From: Chloroflexota bacterium
GTDB lineage: Bacteria > Chloroflexota > Dormibacteria > Dormibacterales > Dormibacteraceae
Direction of reading: 5' to 3'
Length of the DNA stretch: 64,000 nt
Assembly (NCBI GenBank): GCA_005887685.1
Contig: VBHJ01000009.1
Coordinates: 32,079-96,078 of the forward strand
Part shown: positions 32,113 through 38,592 of the stretch, one piece after another
Position numbering within the stretch: the first letter of the stretch is position 1
Layout of the letters: every line of letters begins with the position of its first letter
Notes under the pieces: generated by a model
What the model saw: only the letters and a program-made list of their open reading frames with translations
Database searches by the model: none
Told to the model about the DNA's origin: nothing
Program-made: the position numbers and the translations under genes

Positions 32113-32735
32113 TCGACACCCAGCTGCTTGCTTTCGCGGGAGTCTCCCTTTTGCTTGCGGTGACGCCCGGACCCGACATGGCGGTGGTGACCAAGAACGC
32201 CCTCGCGCACGGACGCCGAGGAGTGGTCCTCACCACAAGCGGCATCGCACTGGCCCTGGTCATCTGGGTCACCGCGACGGCGGTCGGTATCTCCGCGCTG
32301 CTGCGAACTTCAGGAGAGGTGCTGTTCGTCCTCAAGCTGATCGGCGCTTGCTACCTCGCGTATCTCGGCATTCGCGCGCTTCTCGAATCGCGTTCGAGGC
32401 CGGCTGATCTCCTAGCGGGCATGGCGCCTGCCGCGCCGGCCCACGCGGTGTTCAGGCAGGGATTCCTCTCGGCCATCAGCAACCCGAAGCTCGGCGTGTT
32501 TTTTGTCACGTTCCTGCCGCAGTTCGTGCTGCCGGGCCAGCCGGCGCTGTCGCGACTGCTGGTTCTCGGCGTCACCTTCGCCGTGATCGGGTGGATCTGG
32601 ATGAACGTCTACGGGCTTTTCGTGACGCGGCTCCGCGACGTGATCACCGCGCCCCGGGTACGGCAGTGGATGCAGAGAGTGACCGGGGTCGTCCTGCTCG
32701 GTTTCGGCGCGCGGTTAGCGCTGGAGAGGATCTAG
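32109..32735 (+). CDS. LysE/RhtB-family amino acid exporter
   Basis: GTG 32109 overlaps the GNAT stop (GTGA) and gives 208 residues, the usual size. Six hydrophobic segments are visible. Family marks are LLAVTPGPDMAVVTKNALAHGRR after TM1, LKLIGACYLAYLGIRAL, and GFLSAISNPKLGVFFVTFLPQFV. The family exports basic or neutral amino acids or their derivatives at the inner membrane; the substrate is unknown. Co-translation with a GNAT suggests export of an acetylated or detoxified amino acid, which is inference. Confidence 0.92.
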   Translation: MIDTQLLAFAGVSLLLAVTPGPDMAVVTKNALAHGRRGVVLTTSGIALALVIWVTATAVGISALLRTSGEVLFVLKLIGACYLAYLGIRALLESRSRPADLLAGMAPAAPAHAVFRQGFLSAISNPKLGVFFVTFLPQFVLPGQPALSRLLVLGVTFAVIGWIWMNVYGLFVTRLRDVITAPRVRQWMQRVTGVVLLGFGARLALERI

Positions 32736-33511
32736 GCCCACGCGACCTCCGTGCAGAGATAGTCGAATGCCTGCCCCTCCGGCATGCCGTAGGGGAAGTT
32801 CTTCGGGTCGGCCGGTCCGAGCGCGAAGATCGCCACAGTCACTCCTTTCTGGCTCGCCACGATCACCGCAAAGCGGACTTTGGCGGCCGTTTGCGATGCG
32901 CCGACCAGGTTCGCCGAATAGACCTGGCCGACTCCGTCCTGGTTGCCGATGTGGGCGCCCTTCACGCTCGCGACCAGGGTGACGTCCTGCCACTGCGACG
33001 TCGGCAGATTGGAAACGGTCGATTGGAGGACCTGGTCGGGGTTGCCGCCGCTCGAACCGGTGACCTGGACGAGGCCCATCTTCGTGCCCAGCGTGATGCC
33101 GGAGGCATCTTGCGTGCGCACGGTCCACTGCGAGAAGTAGTTGACCTGGAACTTGTACGCCGAGCTGGTGTATGTCGCCTGCTCGGGCAGCGGGGTGACG
33201 AACTTCGGCGAGCAGTTCACCGTGCAGGTCGAGTGGTTGCCCCCGACGAATTGTGAGAGGGCGAAACCTCCGACGAGGACCGCGACCACGATCAGGATGA
33301 GCACGAGTCCGCCGGCGATCAGCGCCGGCGCAAGCTTGTACTGCCCCGCCGCGGGGTACGTCGCGCGCGGCGCCTGCGGGTAGCCGTAGAACGGTCGCGC
33401 CGCGGCCGCCTGCATCAGCACCGGCGTTCCGCAACGGCCGCAGAAAGTCGCGTTGGGCGGAAGCGGCGCGCCGCACCGCCCGCAGTAGCGCACCGGAGCC
33501 TGCGACGCCAT
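32732..33511 (-). CDS. Zinc-ribbon membrane protein with extracytoplasmic domain
   Basis: ATG 33511 overlaps the previous stop (TGATG), giving 259 residues. The N-terminus is a zinc ribbon (RYCGRCGAPL...ATFCGRCGTPV, two CxxC pairs). A Pro/Tyr/Ala linker and one TM (APALIAGGLVLILIVVAVLVGGFAL) follow. The rest is outside: an NHSTCTVNCSP Cys pair, then a beta-rich domain (YKFQVNYFSQWTV; DVTLVASVKGAHIG) like lipoprotein/DUF sensor domains. No enzyme motif. It closes the overlapping operon with the PrsW-like protein, sedolisin, GNAT and CDF. Its 3' end meets the convergent LysE gene with a four-base overlap. Confidence 0.8.
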   Translation of the reverse strand: MASQAPVRYCGRCGAPLPPNATFCGRCGTPVLMQAAAARPFYGYPQAPRATYPAAGQYKLAPALIAGGLVLILIVVAVLVGGFALSQFVGGNHSTCTVNCSPKFVTPLPEQATYTSSAYKFQVNYFSQWTVRTQDASGITLGTKMGLVQVTGSSGGNPDQVLQSTVSNLPTSQWQDVTLVASVKGAHIGNQDGVGQVYSANLVGASQTAAKVRFAVIVASQKGVTVAIFALGPADPKNFPYGMPEGQAFDYLCTEVAWA

Positions 33512-34701
33512 CACACTCCACCCGCAACTTTCGGGCGGCCCTGCTTCGCCGCCGCCGCTCGGGCCGCGCCGCATGCTGGGCAAAATGCCATCGTCGGCAC
33601 GATGCGATGGCATTCCGGGCATGGCGCATCCGGTCCGATCTCATGCTCGGCGCCCTCGGTCAGAAGTGCTTCGTGGATCACCACGCGTAGGAATAGAAGG
33701 AGCACGGCCGTCACGAGGGCCAGGATCGCCAGATCCAGGATGAGGTCCTGCACCGCGAACGTGAGCATCCCGAGCAGGACCTGGACCCCAAAAGCCACGA
33801 CCAGCGCCGCGAGCACAGACGACCACCAGGGCCGGCCGCTCCGCCGCCGGTCGTAGCGGCGCAGCCAGAGCGCCGCGGTCACGAGGCCGGTGGTGCACGC
33901 GTTGATCAGCATCACGAGCAGTCCCGCACGGGTCAGCCGCGCGGCCCAATCCAGCGTCGAACCGGTGCCGACGAGAGGTCCGGTGAGCAGCGGCCAGAAC
34001 CGCGTCAGTGCGCTGGCCATGGTGAAGCCGAGGGCCGAAGCCGCGCCGAAGCTCAACCCGTCGAGCGGTTCCCGAAAACGCTCGCGGAACAGATAAAGGA
34101 ATAGGGGGCCTGCCAGCATCAGGGTCTGCGCGACCACCGGGATGGCGATTCCGGCCAGCACAAACGCGGTTTCCCGGTCGCCGGTTATCAGCAGTTGGGA
34201 CAGGGTGCCGCCGGCCAGGTTGGTGAAGGCAATTCCAAGAAGAGCTCCGATCACCATCGTCGCGCCGATGACGAGCCACGGCTCGGACTCGTACACCTCG
34301 ACTTCGTAGAGATACATGAGGTAGAGGACGGGCACGACGAGAACCGCCGCCACGGTCGCGAGCGCAAAGAGATGCAGCGCTGCCAGCAGGGCAACGAGTG
34401 CTGCACCCGCGACCAGCGCGAGGCGAAACGAGGCGCCGCGGCGATGAGGCAGGTGCGGCAGGAGCGTGCTGATGATCGCGAGCTGAACCACGCGCTCGTT
34501 GGGCACCGCGGCAAAGGCGTGGCTCCTGCGCCGGCTGTTCATTGTCAGATGTGCGCCGCAGTGGCCGCAGAAATCGCCGGCCGGAACGATCGAACCGCAG
34601 TGCGGACAGGTCACGAGCGGAGGCCGTTCGAGCGGCAGCTCGCCCGTTTCGCCGGCCCGCCGGCCTGCGCTCTTTCTTCGCTCGGGCCCACGCTCCTTCA
34701 T
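33511..34701 (-). CDS. PrsW-like polytopic membrane protein flanked by zinc ribbons, catalytic Glu pair absent
   Basis: ATG 34701 (ATGA overlap with the sedolisin stop) gives 396 residues. The N-terminal zinc ribbon is CPHCGSIVPAGDFCGHCG, and the C-terminal one is CPECHRIVPTMAFCPACG. Between them are about nine TM helices. YLYEVEVYESEPWLVIGATM and PLDGLSFGAASALGF match the PrsW (M82) arrangement. Where PrsW has its Glu-Glu pair, this protein reads IPVVAQTLMLAGPLFLYLF, and the later Glu is also missing (GFTMASALTRFW). It is therefore probably a non-proteolytic PrsW relative. PrsW proteases cleave anti-sigma factors; here a binding or regulatory role is more likely. Family assignment is by pattern only. 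Confidence 0.65.
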   Translation of the reverse strand: MKERGPERRKSAGRRAGETGELPLERPPLVTCPHCGSIVPAGDFCGHCGAHLTMNSRRRSHAFAAVPNERVVQLAIISTLLPHLPHRRGASFRLALVAGAALVALLAALHLFALATVAAVLVVPVLYLMYLYEVEVYESEPWLVIGATMVIGALLGIAFTNLAGGTLSQLLITGDRETAFVLAGIAIPVVAQTLMLAGPLFLYLFRERFREPLDGLSFGAASALGFTMASALTRFWPLLTGPLVGTGSTLDWAARLTRAGLLVMLINACTTGLVTAALWLRRYDRRRSGRPWWSSVLAALVVAFGVQVLLGMLTFAVQDLILDLAILALVTAVLLLFLRVVIHEALLTEGAEHEIGPDAPCPECHRIVPTMAFCPACGAARAAAAKQGRPKVAGGV

Positions 34702-36344
34702 CCGCCGCCCTTGATGTAGCGCGCCCACGCCGCGTCGAGTGCCGATGCATCCATGCTGCCCCAACCCGTGGCGAAGTCCCATCCCGTCCCCGCGTCATAG
34801 AAGAGGTTGTTACCGGACGTCACGTCGTGGAACGGTTTCGGGCTGAGCTTCGAAGAGTTCTCGCCCATCCAGTAAATCGCAGGGTTGGCGAAACCGATCT
34901 CATGCAGGCCCTTGTGCTTCAGGTCCTGGTTGATGAGCGCGGCCGTGGCGGCCCAAAGCGGTGTCGCGGCCGACGTTCCACCCACCTGTTCGTCCTTGCC
35001 GCCGAAGATGATATGGAACCCCGTCAGTGGGTCAGCGTCGGCCGAAACGTCGGGGACCTGGCGCCGTCCGTGGCCGCCCGGCTGGCCCTCGCTCGTCTGG
35101 TAAGCGGGCATAGCATAAAACTCGCTCGCGCCTCCGCCCCCGCCGCTCTGGTCGAGGGGGCTGCCCCACGCGTACTCCTTCAAGTACACCCCCTGTGTGG
35201 ATTCGAAGACGGTGGTGCCGCCGACCGACGTCACCGACGGCAGCGTGGACGGGAAGCTGCTCGCGGCGGGCTGGTCGAGGCCACATGTATAGGCGCCGTT
35301 ATCTCCGCTGGCCACGAAGTGCGACATGCCCAGGGCCACGGCTCGATCCTGGATCGCCGCGTAGTTGTCGCGAGCGCCGCTTGGCGTTTCCGGTTCGCAG
35401 GATCCGAGGCTCTCGGAGATGATCGACCCCAGGTGATCCGTGACCATCTGGTCGAAAGCGCGGTCGCTGTGGCCGAAGTCCGGTGACGAGAAGTAGACGA
35501 CCAGGTTGGCGTTGGGCGCGACCTCGTGGATGATCTCCAGGTCGAGCGCGGTCTCGCCTTGCGCCTTCTCGGGCGTGCCCCAGTTCGCGTCGCGCTTCAC
35601 CGTCAGCACCGACTCGAACGCGGGCAGACCGAACTTCGAAGCGAACTTGTCCAGGTCGTTCATGTTCGGCAGGTCGTCGATCTCGGGCAGCATGATCGTC
35701 TGCCCCGTGCCATCGAGGCCGGCGTCGCGGAGCGGCTTGATGTTGTAGTAGCTCAGCACGTCGACGGGAACCAGGCCGCCCGGGCGAACGGCATAGCCGC
35801 GGTCGCGGTGGTAGTCGTCGAGGCCGCTGACCGCTGCGGCGGCCGCAGCGATCGGCGCCGGGAGATGCGGCTGGTCGAGCGTGGCGTAAAAGGTGGCGCC
35901 GCCCGGCAGGCGGTAGTTCTCGATGTCCACGCCAAGCAGCTGCGAAGCTGACGGTGCGGGCCCGTCCGCCGCGATCAGGCTCGACGGTGGCTGCCACACC
36001 GCACGCAGGCCGGCGGCCCGAAGGAAGGCCACAGCTCGCTCCACGAGGACCGGGTCGGGTCCGAACCTGGCCGCGTATTCGGACGCCGACAATGTCTGGC
36101 CGGATGCGAGCACCGCATCGAGCTGAGCCTGATTGCGGACCTTCAGGCCAAAACTCAGAAAAACAGTCGTGGACGAGTCGGCGGGTCCGAGCGGTGTGGA
36201 CCGGCGGATCGCGTCCGACAGGGTGAGCGGCGGTTTCTGGATCACCTCTCCCACCTGCTGACGAGCGTTGGCGTGGGGGCTGCTGCAGGCCGCCGCCGCC
36301 AGTGCCGCAACCATGACCAACGCGGCTGCGGCGGGAAATTTCAC
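34698..36344 (-). CDS. Sedolisin-family (S53) protease, lipoprotein-like
   Basis: The track start lies within the GNAT; GTG 36344 overlaps the GNAT stop (GTGA) and gives 548 residues. The signal ends in AALAAAAC, a lipobox, so it is likely anchored outside the cell by lipid. A pro-kumamolisin activation domain spans about 40-185 (LKVRNQAQLDAVLASG; PALLVERAV-like helix). The peptidase has GETALDLEIIHEVAP, containing the ExxxD of the Ser-Glu-Asp triad, SLGSCEPE with the oxyanion-region residues, and GGTSAATPLWAA with the nucleophilic Ser. DVTSGNN and WDFATGWGSMD fit the C-terminal calcium site. Sedolisins are active at acid pH. Catalytic residues look complete. Confidence 0.92.
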   Translation of the reverse strand: MKFPAAAALVMVAALAAAACSSPHANARQQVGEVIQKPPLTLSDAIRRSTPLGPADSSTTVFLSFGLKVRNQAQLDAVLASGQTLSASEYAARFGPDPVLVERAVAFLRAAGLRAVWQPPSSLIAADGPAPSASQLLGVDIENYRLPGGATFYATLDQPHLPAPIAAAAAAVSGLDDYHRDRGYAVRPGGLVPVDVLSYYNIKPLRDAGLDGTGQTIMLPEIDDLPNMNDLDKFASKFGLPAFESVLTVKRDANWGTPEKAQGETALDLEIIHEVAPNANLVVYFSSPDFGHSDRAFDQMVTDHLGSIISESLGSCEPETPSGARDNYAAIQDRAVALGMSHFVASGDNGAYTCGLDQPAASSFPSTLPSVTSVGGTTVFESTQGVYLKEYAWGSPLDQSGGGGGASEFYAMPAYQTSEGQPGGHGRRQVPDVSADADPLTGFHIIFGGKDEQVGGTSAATPLWAATAALINQDLKHKGLHEIGFANPAIYWMGENSSKLSPKPFHDVTSGNNLFYDAGTGWDFATGWGSMDASALDAAWARYIKGGG

Positions 36345-37222
36345 AGGAAAGAAGCTTCCCAGACCTCGGCCTCGAACATGACCGCAAAACCCAGCTTTCC
36401 ATACACGTCGTACGCGCGCATCGGGCTGAGTCCGTCGACGTAGAGCGATGCATGGCGCGCCCCCGCGCGGCGCAGGCGGTGCAGCGATTCGGCGACCAAC
36501 CATCCGGCAAGACCTCGCCGCCTGTGCTCGGGCACCGTGCCGACCGAGCTCACCAGACCGACCGGCTGGGGCCGCGAGTCGCCAGGGTATGTCTCGAGCT
36601 CGGCCAGGGTCATCGCCGCGGGTGACCCGCCGGCCGACGTGACGGCCATCAGGCTCAGCTCGGGCAGCTTGCCGGCGAGGATCTCGCCTTCGGCGCGGGG
36701 CTTGAACCGCCAGTGGTCCACGAAAGTCCGGTTGAACATCTCGGACCATCGGCCGGGCGGCACGGACGTCCCGTCAAGCAGCCTGTAACCGGGCACCGTC
36801 GTCGTTTCCGGCAAACCGTCGCTCAGGCTGCGATCCATCCGCCACCACGGGCGCACCACCGTCATCCCGGTTTCGGCGAGGCCGTCGCCCCGGCCCTTTG
36901 CGACCGTCGTCTGGACGATGGTGGCGCCGGCCGCCCGCGCGAACTGCACGCCCCAGCGCGCCATGTCCCGATACCTGTCGCCGTGACCGGCCGCATACAC
37001 GGTCGCGATGACGCCGTCCGGCGAAGGCCTGCTCATCACCAGCGCGGAGCCCGCGATCCGGCCCGACTCCTCGATGACTCGCGACTTCGTTTCCCAATCG
37101 AAACGCGCCAGCACGCGCTGCAACAGGCTTTCGCTCGGCACGATGTCCTGCCGTCCTGCGGTCACCTCGTCGCGCATGAGCTCGATCAGCCCGGAAAGGT
37201 CCGCCTCGCGTCCGGGCCTCAT
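36341..37222 (-). CDS. Tandem-GNAT acetyltransferase (mycothiol-synthase MshD-like layout)
   Basis: A 293-residue protein with two GNAT halves. The first (about 1-130) is degenerate (VIATVYAAGHGDRYRDMARW). The second carries VGTVPEHRRRGLAGWLVAESL, an acetyl-CoA-binding RxxGxA loop, followed by AYDVYGKLGF. The two-domain arrangement resembles MshD and related N-acetyltransferases, but no other mycothiol gene is in the window, so the substrate is open. ATG overlaps the CDF stop (ATGA), and its own stop overlaps the sedolisin GTG, so it is translated within the same operon. Confidence 0.82.
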   Translation of the reverse strand: MRPGREADLSGLIELMRDEVTAGRQDIVPSESLLQRVLARFDWETKSRVIEESGRIAGSALVMSRPSPDGVIATVYAAGHGDRYRDMARWGVQFARAAGATIVQTTVAKGRGDGLAETGMTVVRPWWRMDRSLSDGLPETTTVPGYRLLDGTSVPPGRWSEMFNRTFVDHWRFKPRAEGEILAGKLPELSLMAVTSAGGSPAAMTLAELETYPGDSRPQPVGLVSSVGTVPEHRRRGLAGWLVAESLHRLRRAGARHASLYVDGLSPMRAYDVYGKLGFAVMFEAEVWEASFL

Positions 37223-38592
37223 GCCGTGACGCGTGTCACCACCTCATGAACTTCCGGTACCTCGCGGCGGATCGTCTCTTCGAGCTGGCTCTCGATCTCG
37301 TGCGCGTGCTCGAGGCTGATGTCTCCGGCGACCTCGGCCACGACGTGCGCGTAGATGCGGTTGTGCCGGTCGCTCAGCTCGACGTCGACGCACCGCTTCA
37401 CCTCCGGGTGGGCTTCAACGATCTGGCGCATCCGCGCCGCCAGCTGAGCCCGTCTGGCGGTGACGTCCTCACCTGGTACGACCTCAGGCTCCATGGGTTC
37501 GAGGTGGATGTCAATGCGCGTCACTTCGGGGAGCTCCGCGCGAATCGCGCGCTCGAGCCGGCGGCTGGTGCCTGAGGCTTTGGCCAGTGTCTGGTCGCCT
37601 GGCAGCTTCGCGTGCATCGTGAGGTGAAGCGACCCGTCGGCTTCGCGCTCGACCGTGACGTTGTGAAGATCACGAACGCCGCCGTTTCGCGCGGCCGCGG
37701 CATGGATCCTTTCCACCAGGTCGCCCTGCTGCTCCTGCCCCTGCACCGCGACAGCCAGGTCGAGGCCCGGAAGCACAGATCGCGCCCGCGTCTTCACGTC
37801 GTCGACCAGCGCGCCGGCTGCCTCGACGGAAAGCATGCGACCGGTGGCGATGCTCGCGTCACCGATCATGTTGGGACCGGACCGTCGCACGCGCACCGAC
37901 CGGACCTCGCGCACGCCGTCGACGTCGCGAATCGCGTCTCGCAGCTGCTTCTCGGCGCCGGCCGGAGCTCGGTCGATCAGGATGTCGCCCGAGCGCCACG
38001 CCAGCAGGCCCGCCGCTCGCGCGACGATCGCCGCCACCAGCAGCGCCGCCACCGAGTCGGCCCAGGTCAACCCCATCCGCACTCCGATCAGCCCGGCGAT
38101 CACGCCCAGCGTCGCCAGCACGTCGGACAGGCGGTTCGTCGCGTCGGCGAGCATGGCCTCGCTGGATGCGAGCCGGCCGACCCGGCGCAGGACCCCGGCC
38201 CGTCCGGCCTCGATCAGGAGCGTGGCGATCAGCAGACCGAATGCGTAGCCGGCTGGATTGACGATGGCGCCGCCCTCGGCCAGCCTGCGGATCGCCTCGA
38301 AAGCGATGAACGCGGCGGTGATCAGAAGCAGGATGCCCTCGGCGAACGCGGCCAGGTTTTCGGTCCGGCCGTGGCCGTAGGGATGCTCGGTGTCGGCAGG
38401 CTTGTGGGATGTGCGGACGGCGGCGAGGGTGAATCCGCTGGCCGCGAGGTCCAGGAATGAATGCGCTGCCTCGCTCAGGATGCCGAGGCTCCCGGTGAGC
38501 AGGCCGACCACCAGCTTGGCGACGACCAGCGCCACGCCGATGACGAGGGAGCCGACGGCGACGAGCTCTGGACGCCTCTCCACCCTTCTCAC
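37219..38592 (-). CDS. Cation diffusion facilitator with extended, repeated C-terminal domain
   Basis: A 457-residue metal/proton antiporter; typical CDFs are about 300. TM2 has HSFLDLAASG (HxxxD), with HPYGHGR between TM2 and TM3. TM5 has DATNRLSDVLATLG, so the usual second HxxxD reads NxxxD. After the membrane domain come three cytoplasmic segments of similar pattern (VREVRSVRVRRSGP; VRDLHNVTVEREADG; VKRCVDVELSDRHN), each resembling a CDF C-terminal domain. Metal specificity cannot be called; the H-D-N-D site could favour Mn or Fe over Zn. First gene of the operon that overlaps down to 32732. Confidence 0.85.
   Translation of the reverse strand: MRRVERRPELVAVGSLVIGVALVVAKLVVGLLTGSLGILSEAAHSFLDLAASGFTLAAVRTSHKPADTEHPYGHGRTENLAAFAEGILLLITAAFIAFEAIRRLAEGGAIVNPAGYAFGLLIATLLIEAGRAGVLRRVGRLASSEAMLADATNRLSDVLATLGVIAGLIGVRMGLTWADSVAALLVAAIVARAAGLLAWRSGDILIDRAPAGAEKQLRDAIRDVDGVREVRSVRVRRSGPNMIGDASIATGRMLSVEAAGALVDDVKTRARSVLPGLDLAVAVQGQEQQGDLVERIHAAAARNGGVRDLHNVTVEREADGSLHLTMHAKLPGDQTLAKASGTSRRLERAIRAELPEVTRIDIHLEPMEPEVVPGEDVTARRAQLAARMRQIVEAHPEVKRCVDVELSDRHNRIYAHVVAEVAGDISLEHAHEIESQLEETIRREVPEVHEVVTRVTA

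Follow-up and report, generated by a model that had tools for sequence, protein, structure and literature searches.

Sedolisins are secreted acid proteases, and to our knowledge the bacterial members have been little studied except as secreted enzymes. The pairing of a protease with a pseudoprotease partner, on the other hand, is a known principle: iRhom2 binds ADAM17, promotes maturation of the protease and holds the prodomain (PMC11248996). In bacteria, PrsW of Bacillus subtilis relies on the active-site motifs EExxK and HxxxD (PMC4602095), and a 2012 survey of polymorphic toxins noted zinc-ribbon PrsW fusions (PMC3482391). Here we analyze an operon that brings a sedolisin and a PrsW-like protein together. 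It lies in a 64,000-nucleotide stretch of DNA (the window; contig VBHJ01000009.1) from the 3.05 Mb draft genome of a Chloroflexota bacterium, whose nearest relatives are soil metagenome-assembled genomes (MAGs; Chloroflexi / Candidatus Dormibacterota).

The operon comprises five genes on the - strand, all with intact open reading frames (ORFs) and each with a bacterial start. The last three encode a lipoprotein of the S53 sedolisin family (548 aa; 34698..36344), a PrsW-like protein that we call pseudo-PrsW (396 aa; 33511..34701) and ZnR, which consists of a zinc ribbon, a transmembrane (TM) helix and an ectodomain (259 aa; 32732..33511; Zn_Ribbon_1, PF13240). Upstream of them are genes for a CDF cation exporter and a GNAT acetyltransferase. 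We conclude that, outside the window's own family, only the last three of the five genes are conserved as a unit. By analogy with iRhom–ADAM17, we propose, with a probability of about one half, that these genes encode a membrane-anchored protease assembly in which a surface protease is regulated by a pseudoprotease.

Conservation of a three-gene module

We searched 400 genomes of the window's phylum with family profiles of the PrsW-like protein and ZnR, and read the regions around strong matches. The comparison genomes are drafts, and gene starts in the relatives were set mechanically. The trio is present in five families of the phylum, labeled f1 (the family of the window), f2 (from the same class), f17, f21 and f38, and all three parts occur together wherever the contig extends far enough; at L178, L179 and L091, the contig ends before the place of the missing partner. 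The order is sedolisin, PrsW, ZnR in f1, f2 and f17 (L175 and L176 in f17), and PrsW, ZnR, sedolisin in f38 (L177, L180, L182, L183 and L184) and f21 (L185). At two loci (L098 and L186), a single polypeptide combines the PrsW-like protein with the ectodomain at its C-terminus, and the sedolisin gene is adjacent. A branch with 92/80 support separates the module sedolisins from the stand-alone ones, and the module PrsW proteins split from a paralog, PrsW2, with 100/100 support. Both trees part the sedolisin-first lineages (f1, f2 and f17) from the sedolisin-last ones. Changes of gene order with constant membership, together with the fusions, are strong evidence for functional linkage, and the association of the trio is well supported.

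Two other explanations of the trio were discarded. Chance synteny in a slowly rearranging genome is ruled out, as the order varies between families and the set is constant. A mobile plasmid origin was considered as well, and the PrsW-like protein matched no plasmid record. Among the individual loci, L181 (G339:C58) has a sedolisin gene on each side of PrsW-ZnR. A contig assigned to another MAG (G030:C158; L073, VBHX01000224.1) is 99-100% identical to the window module, even though a separate copy, at 62-64%, lies on C207 of that MAG; the former contig is probably a binning mix-up.

The first gene of the operon encodes the CDF exporter (37219..38592), with 150 bits for Cation_efflux (PF01545), 106 bits for ZT_dimer (PF16916) in three stretches that form three ZT_dimer-like tails, and 226 bits for TIGR01297; the protein has exactly 457 aa in each intact f1 copy read. 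The second gene (36341..37222; PF00583/PF13527) is indeed a GNAT gene, as an initial sequence-only reading of the window had proposed, but the tandem arrangement that it described is plausible only, as just the C-terminal half of the protein scores in Pfam. Its other protein identities agree with our Pfam and NCBIfam searches. From CDF to ZnR, the genes overlap by 4, 4, 4 and 1 bases (ATGA, GTGA, ATGA and TGATG), again as first described. Because relatives repeat these overlaps, they are not a local accident of the window: sedolisin and PrsW overlap by 4 bases in most genomes, PrsW and ZnR by 1 or 4, and the CDF–GNAT and GNAT–sedolisin junctions by 4 in most relatives, with gaps to ~100 bases also seen. 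Internal promoters had been named as evidence against a single operon. Promoter-like sites inside it are no more frequent than in shuffled sequence (1 versus 0.5 expected), and neither are terminator-like sites (3 versus 2.8).

The sequence-only reading took all five genes for one metal-responsive envelope proteolysis system and suggested examining the neighborhoods of S53 and PrsW-like homologs. In relatives, order and overlaps are indeed conserved: FumC-TrkA-CDF-(GNAT)-S53-PrsW-ZnR recurs in ~20 f1 genomes, and the five-gene order is kept, far above chance, in most f1 genomes that have the module. This conservation speaks for a single system, but outside f1 it extends only to the last three genes. 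No CDF or GNAT gene lies beside the trio in f2 (where G041 and G047 have the trio alone), f17, f21 or f38. Within f1, the genomes G005, G016, G019 and G024 have CDF beside the trio but no GNAT there. CDF and GNAT lie side by side, but lack the trio or have different surroundings, in G023, G025, G027, G034, G036 and the f1 genome G029; in the last, the trio is on contig 30 and CDF-GNAT on contig 54. G022 has an empty site, in which FumC-TrkA-CDF is followed directly by LysE, without GNAT, S53, PrsW and ZnR, all four of which are carried by G033 of the same genus. Pairwise distances between genes are uninformative, as they correlate at 0.80-0.90 for every pair, resident CDF included, and the CDF distances track the trio-gene distances about as closely as common descent alone predicts.

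Because of the empty sites, the split halves and the trios elsewhere without CDF or GNAT, we conclude that the operon combines a resident CDF locus, FumC-TrkA-CDF(-GNAT), with a separable three-gene module. CDF is thus a resident neighbor and GNAT a lineage-specific one, both outside the core. The occurrence of both halves apart, and the empty sites, led us to reject a single metal-response system of five genes, which we consider very improbable. For FumC-TrkA-CDF itself, we keep synteny by slow genome rearrangement as the reading. On the other side of the module, ZnR is followed in most f1 genomes by a LysE gene, a second GNAT gene and a gene for a membrane protein. In the window, ZnR (-) and the LysE-type exporter (+) converge at 32732-32735, where both genes end in TAG within a common palindrome, CTAG.

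Predicted properties of the three proteins

The sedolisin has a signal peptide that carries a lipobox (Cys20), a Pro-kuma activation domain (PF09286, 55.5 bits) and a catalytic domain, and PF00082 (Peptidase_S8) also matched. Its nearest solved structure is pro-kumamolisin (1t1e, E 9e-72). The Ser-Glu-Asp residues and the oxyanion-site Asp were all found, within 34971..35555: E264 (35553-35555), D268 (35541-35543), D348 (35301-35303) and S458 (34971-34973). These four residues and Cys20 are invariant in the module alignment, and the C-terminal Ca-site motif is kept. Judging from these features and from its family, the sedolisin should be a tethered acid protease under the control of its pro-domain.

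The PrsW-like protein scores 35.2 bits with PF13367 (PrsW-protease), above the curated cut-off of 23.5, and 21 bits with the NCBIfam PrsW equivalog model, for which the cut-off is 225. We aligned the motifs of the module sequences with two references from the same genome, a canonical PrsW (contig 52) and PrsW2 (contig 93). In every module PrsW that has the region, across the five families, EExxK, the Glu of FxxxE and both His motifs are gone. The sequence-only reading had remarked on the missing Glu pair, and the loss extends to the other catalytic motifs. Eight cysteines are nonetheless invariant in all 28 module PrsW sequences, as are other residues, showing that the protein is under selection despite the loss of its catalytic motifs. 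The cysteines make up an N-terminal zinc ribbon (Cys32/35/45/48; 34558..34608) and a C-terminal one (Cys361/364/374/377; 33571..33621), on either side of eight TM helices in which invariant polar residues are few. Both ribbons are placed in the cytosol by the loop charge, with 24 K/R inside versus 0 outside. An AF2 model of the protein also contains eight helices (pLDDT 83.9, pTM 0.84). Taken together, the motif losses and the conserved ribbons point to a catalytically dead membrane pseudoprotease.

The AF2 model of ZnR is confident, with a single TM helix (61-89) and, on the outside, a well-ordered domain. For this ectodomain (residues 111-255; 32747..33181), Foldseek matched CyanoP (2xb3; E 9e-6, TM-score by target 0.66), PsbP, Apa, LpqN and Mog1, which predicts a PsbP/LpqN/Mog1-like fold; neither a Pfam family nor a PDB sequence match was found for it. 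The layout of ribbon, TM helix and ectodomain holds in f1 and f2. We found no ribbon in the third protein of G029 and f17, and in f38 this protein is a lipoprotein that has the ectodomain only, with a juxtamembrane C-x3-C pair. Because the ribbon has been lost in some lineages, we conclude that the conserved part of the third protein is the domain outside, near the membrane, not the ribbon. An essential zinc ribbon in this protein is ruled out by the ribbon-less lipoprotein homologs of f38. The sequence-only reading had put two zinc-ribbon membrane proteins on equal terms, a view that fits the invariant ribbons of the PrsW-like protein but not the third protein.

PsbP/LpqN-type folds are common among surface lipoproteins. 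The ectodomain could accordingly belong to a peptide-binding lipoprotein that feeds uptake, with the sedolisin as a surface protease for nutrient scavenging and the PrsW-like protein as its membrane chaperone; both partners would then be accessory proteins that help to export or anchor the protease. Such a role would suit the secreted acid proteases of the sedolisin family, of which kumamolisin is the nearest solved relative. However, no conserved peptide transporter lies beside the trio, and both the tether and the strict conservation of the cytosolic ribbons hint at control from the inside. We regard scavenging as unlikely.

In f1 and f2, the ectodomain protein is also laid out like a transmembrane signal protein, with a cytosolic ribbon, a TM helix and an ectodomain. 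The three proteins might thus form a signaling relay, in which the PrsW-like protein is a receptor or translocation helper that contacts a cytosolic partner through its ribbons. The sedolisin would make the site-1 cut in the ectodomain protein, whose cytosolic ribbon would then report acid outside or envelope stress. There are precedents for this idea, as B. subtilis PrsW acts on an anti-sigma factor as its site-1 protease (PMC4602095), and zinc-ribbon PrsW fusions are proposed as signaling peptidases in the section of the toxin survey devoted to them (PMC3482391). Nevertheless, the third protein of f38 lacks a cytosolic part, which means that cytosolic signal release cannot be the general function. 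Additionally, no sigma or anti-sigma gene was recognized among the five genes or their conserved immediate neighbors, with distant loci incompletely annotated. We consider a relay rather unlikely.

A candidate pseudoprotease-regulated sedolisin

In the regulated assembly that we prefer, the sedolisin would be synthesized in an inactive form, as a pro-lipoprotein, and would remain tethered on the outside after export. Pseudo-PrsW, which would no longer cut, could act as its scaffold, chaperone or gate. The third protein, anchored by a TM helix or a lipid, would keep its PsbP/LpqN-like domain on the outside, close to the membrane, and may be an adaptor, an inhibitor or a substrate of the sedolisin. 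Several points weigh against this proposal. Gene pairing indicates functional linkage, not contact, and it leaves the adaptor, inhibitor and substrate roles undistinguished. A fold search with the confident pseudo-PrsW model gave a best PDB match of E 0.5; because no solved fold, such as that of a CAAX protease, matched well, it is the Pfam match that places the protein in the PrsW superfamily. The PrsW-like protein may also have another catalytic use, although its helices contain few invariant polar residues. The gene association, the changes of order, the fusions, the loss of the PrsW motifs and the kept sedolisin residues are observed, and topology and ectodomain fold are predicted; we infer the physical complex, the direction of regulation, the substrate and the history of the module.

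A paralogous pair provides a view of this history. In seven f1 genomes, a gene for PrsW2, a zinc-ribbon PrsW, is followed directly by one for ZnR2, another ribbon-TM-ectodomain protein, without a sedolisin gene. These loci (G000:C93:699-2707 (L099), L105-L108, L110 and L111) lie downstream of a peptide-methionine-sulfoxide-reductase-like gene in f1 genomes. PrsW2 of f1 keeps QExxK, FxxxE and one His, and PrsW2 of f2 has lost more. The ectodomains of ZnR and ZnR2 were not linked by profile search, but a profile-profile comparison (hhalign) gave 64% and E 7e-5, moderate support that they may be related. In G041 (L095:7726-14123), the ORFs for PrsW2, a ribbon protein, S53, pseudo-PrsW and ZnR stand in a row, as if both paralogous pairs had once been in tandem. 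The PrsW2-ZnR2 pair and this row suggest that the combination of PrsW and ectodomain is older, and that the sedolisin arrived with the loss of PrsW catalysis. An ancestral pair, comparable to PrsW2-ZnR2, would have given up intramembrane cutting once an outside sedolisin took over. Since PrsW2-ZnR2 occurs in the same genome, it offers a comparison for the replacement of intramembrane by outside proteolysis.

Comparison with known systems

The sequence-only reading knew of no described system with this set of genes, and the open-access literature supports it: in our search, no paper dealt with both PrsW and sedolisin, or with PrsW and a pseudoprotease. The realization of the protease–pseudoprotease principle by a sedolisin and a pseudo-PrsW is thus undescribed in the open-access literature searched. 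Pseudo-PrsW resembles B. subtilis PrsW in being a multi-pass protein with a PF13367 domain and eight helices, but it lacks the EExxK, FxxxE and His motifs, and a sedolisin takes the place of the anti-sigma factor (RsiW) as its partner. It shares with the fusions of the toxin survey a bacterial PrsW domain, zinc ribbons and a presumed role in signaling. In the section that describes them, those fusions are treated as active peptidases, with no mention of a sedolisin, a PsbP-like partner or lost catalysis (PMC3482391). With the module, a dead PrsW subfamily, named an active protease in databases, gains a function-bearing context.

The sedolisin has the pro-domain, Ser-Glu-Asp residues and Ca-site motif of kumamolisin and other S53 enzymes; unlike them, it has a lipoprotein tether and an obligate-looking gene partnership, and a tethered, partnered sedolisin is new ground. 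The ectodomain shares its predicted fold with PsbP/CyanoP, LpqN, Apa and Mog1, but it has other partners and no sequence-family match to them.

The closest parallel is iRhom1/2-ADAM17, in which a polytopic relative of intramembrane proteases, devoid of catalytic residues, is likewise linked to a membrane-tethered protease with an inhibitory prodomain. The extracellular domain of iRhom2 holds the prodomain, and the fused PrsW-ectodomain proteins could do likewise. There is no homology between the two systems. The bacterial pseudoprotease is of the PrsW type and not a rhomboid, and it has cytosolic zinc ribbons; the protease is a sedolisin and not a metalloprotease, tethered by a lipid and not by a TM helix; and the pairing here is known from gene linkage. 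A full bacterial counterpart, in which a PrsW-derived pseudoprotease escorts a lipid-tethered sedolisin, brings about its maturation and gates it, and the outside protease has replaced ancestral intramembrane cutting, is a more tentative proposal than a regulated assembly as such. If it is true, the pseudoprotease-cofactor principle of animal iRhoms has a second, separate origin in bacteria, in a family of intramembrane proteases unrelated to theirs.

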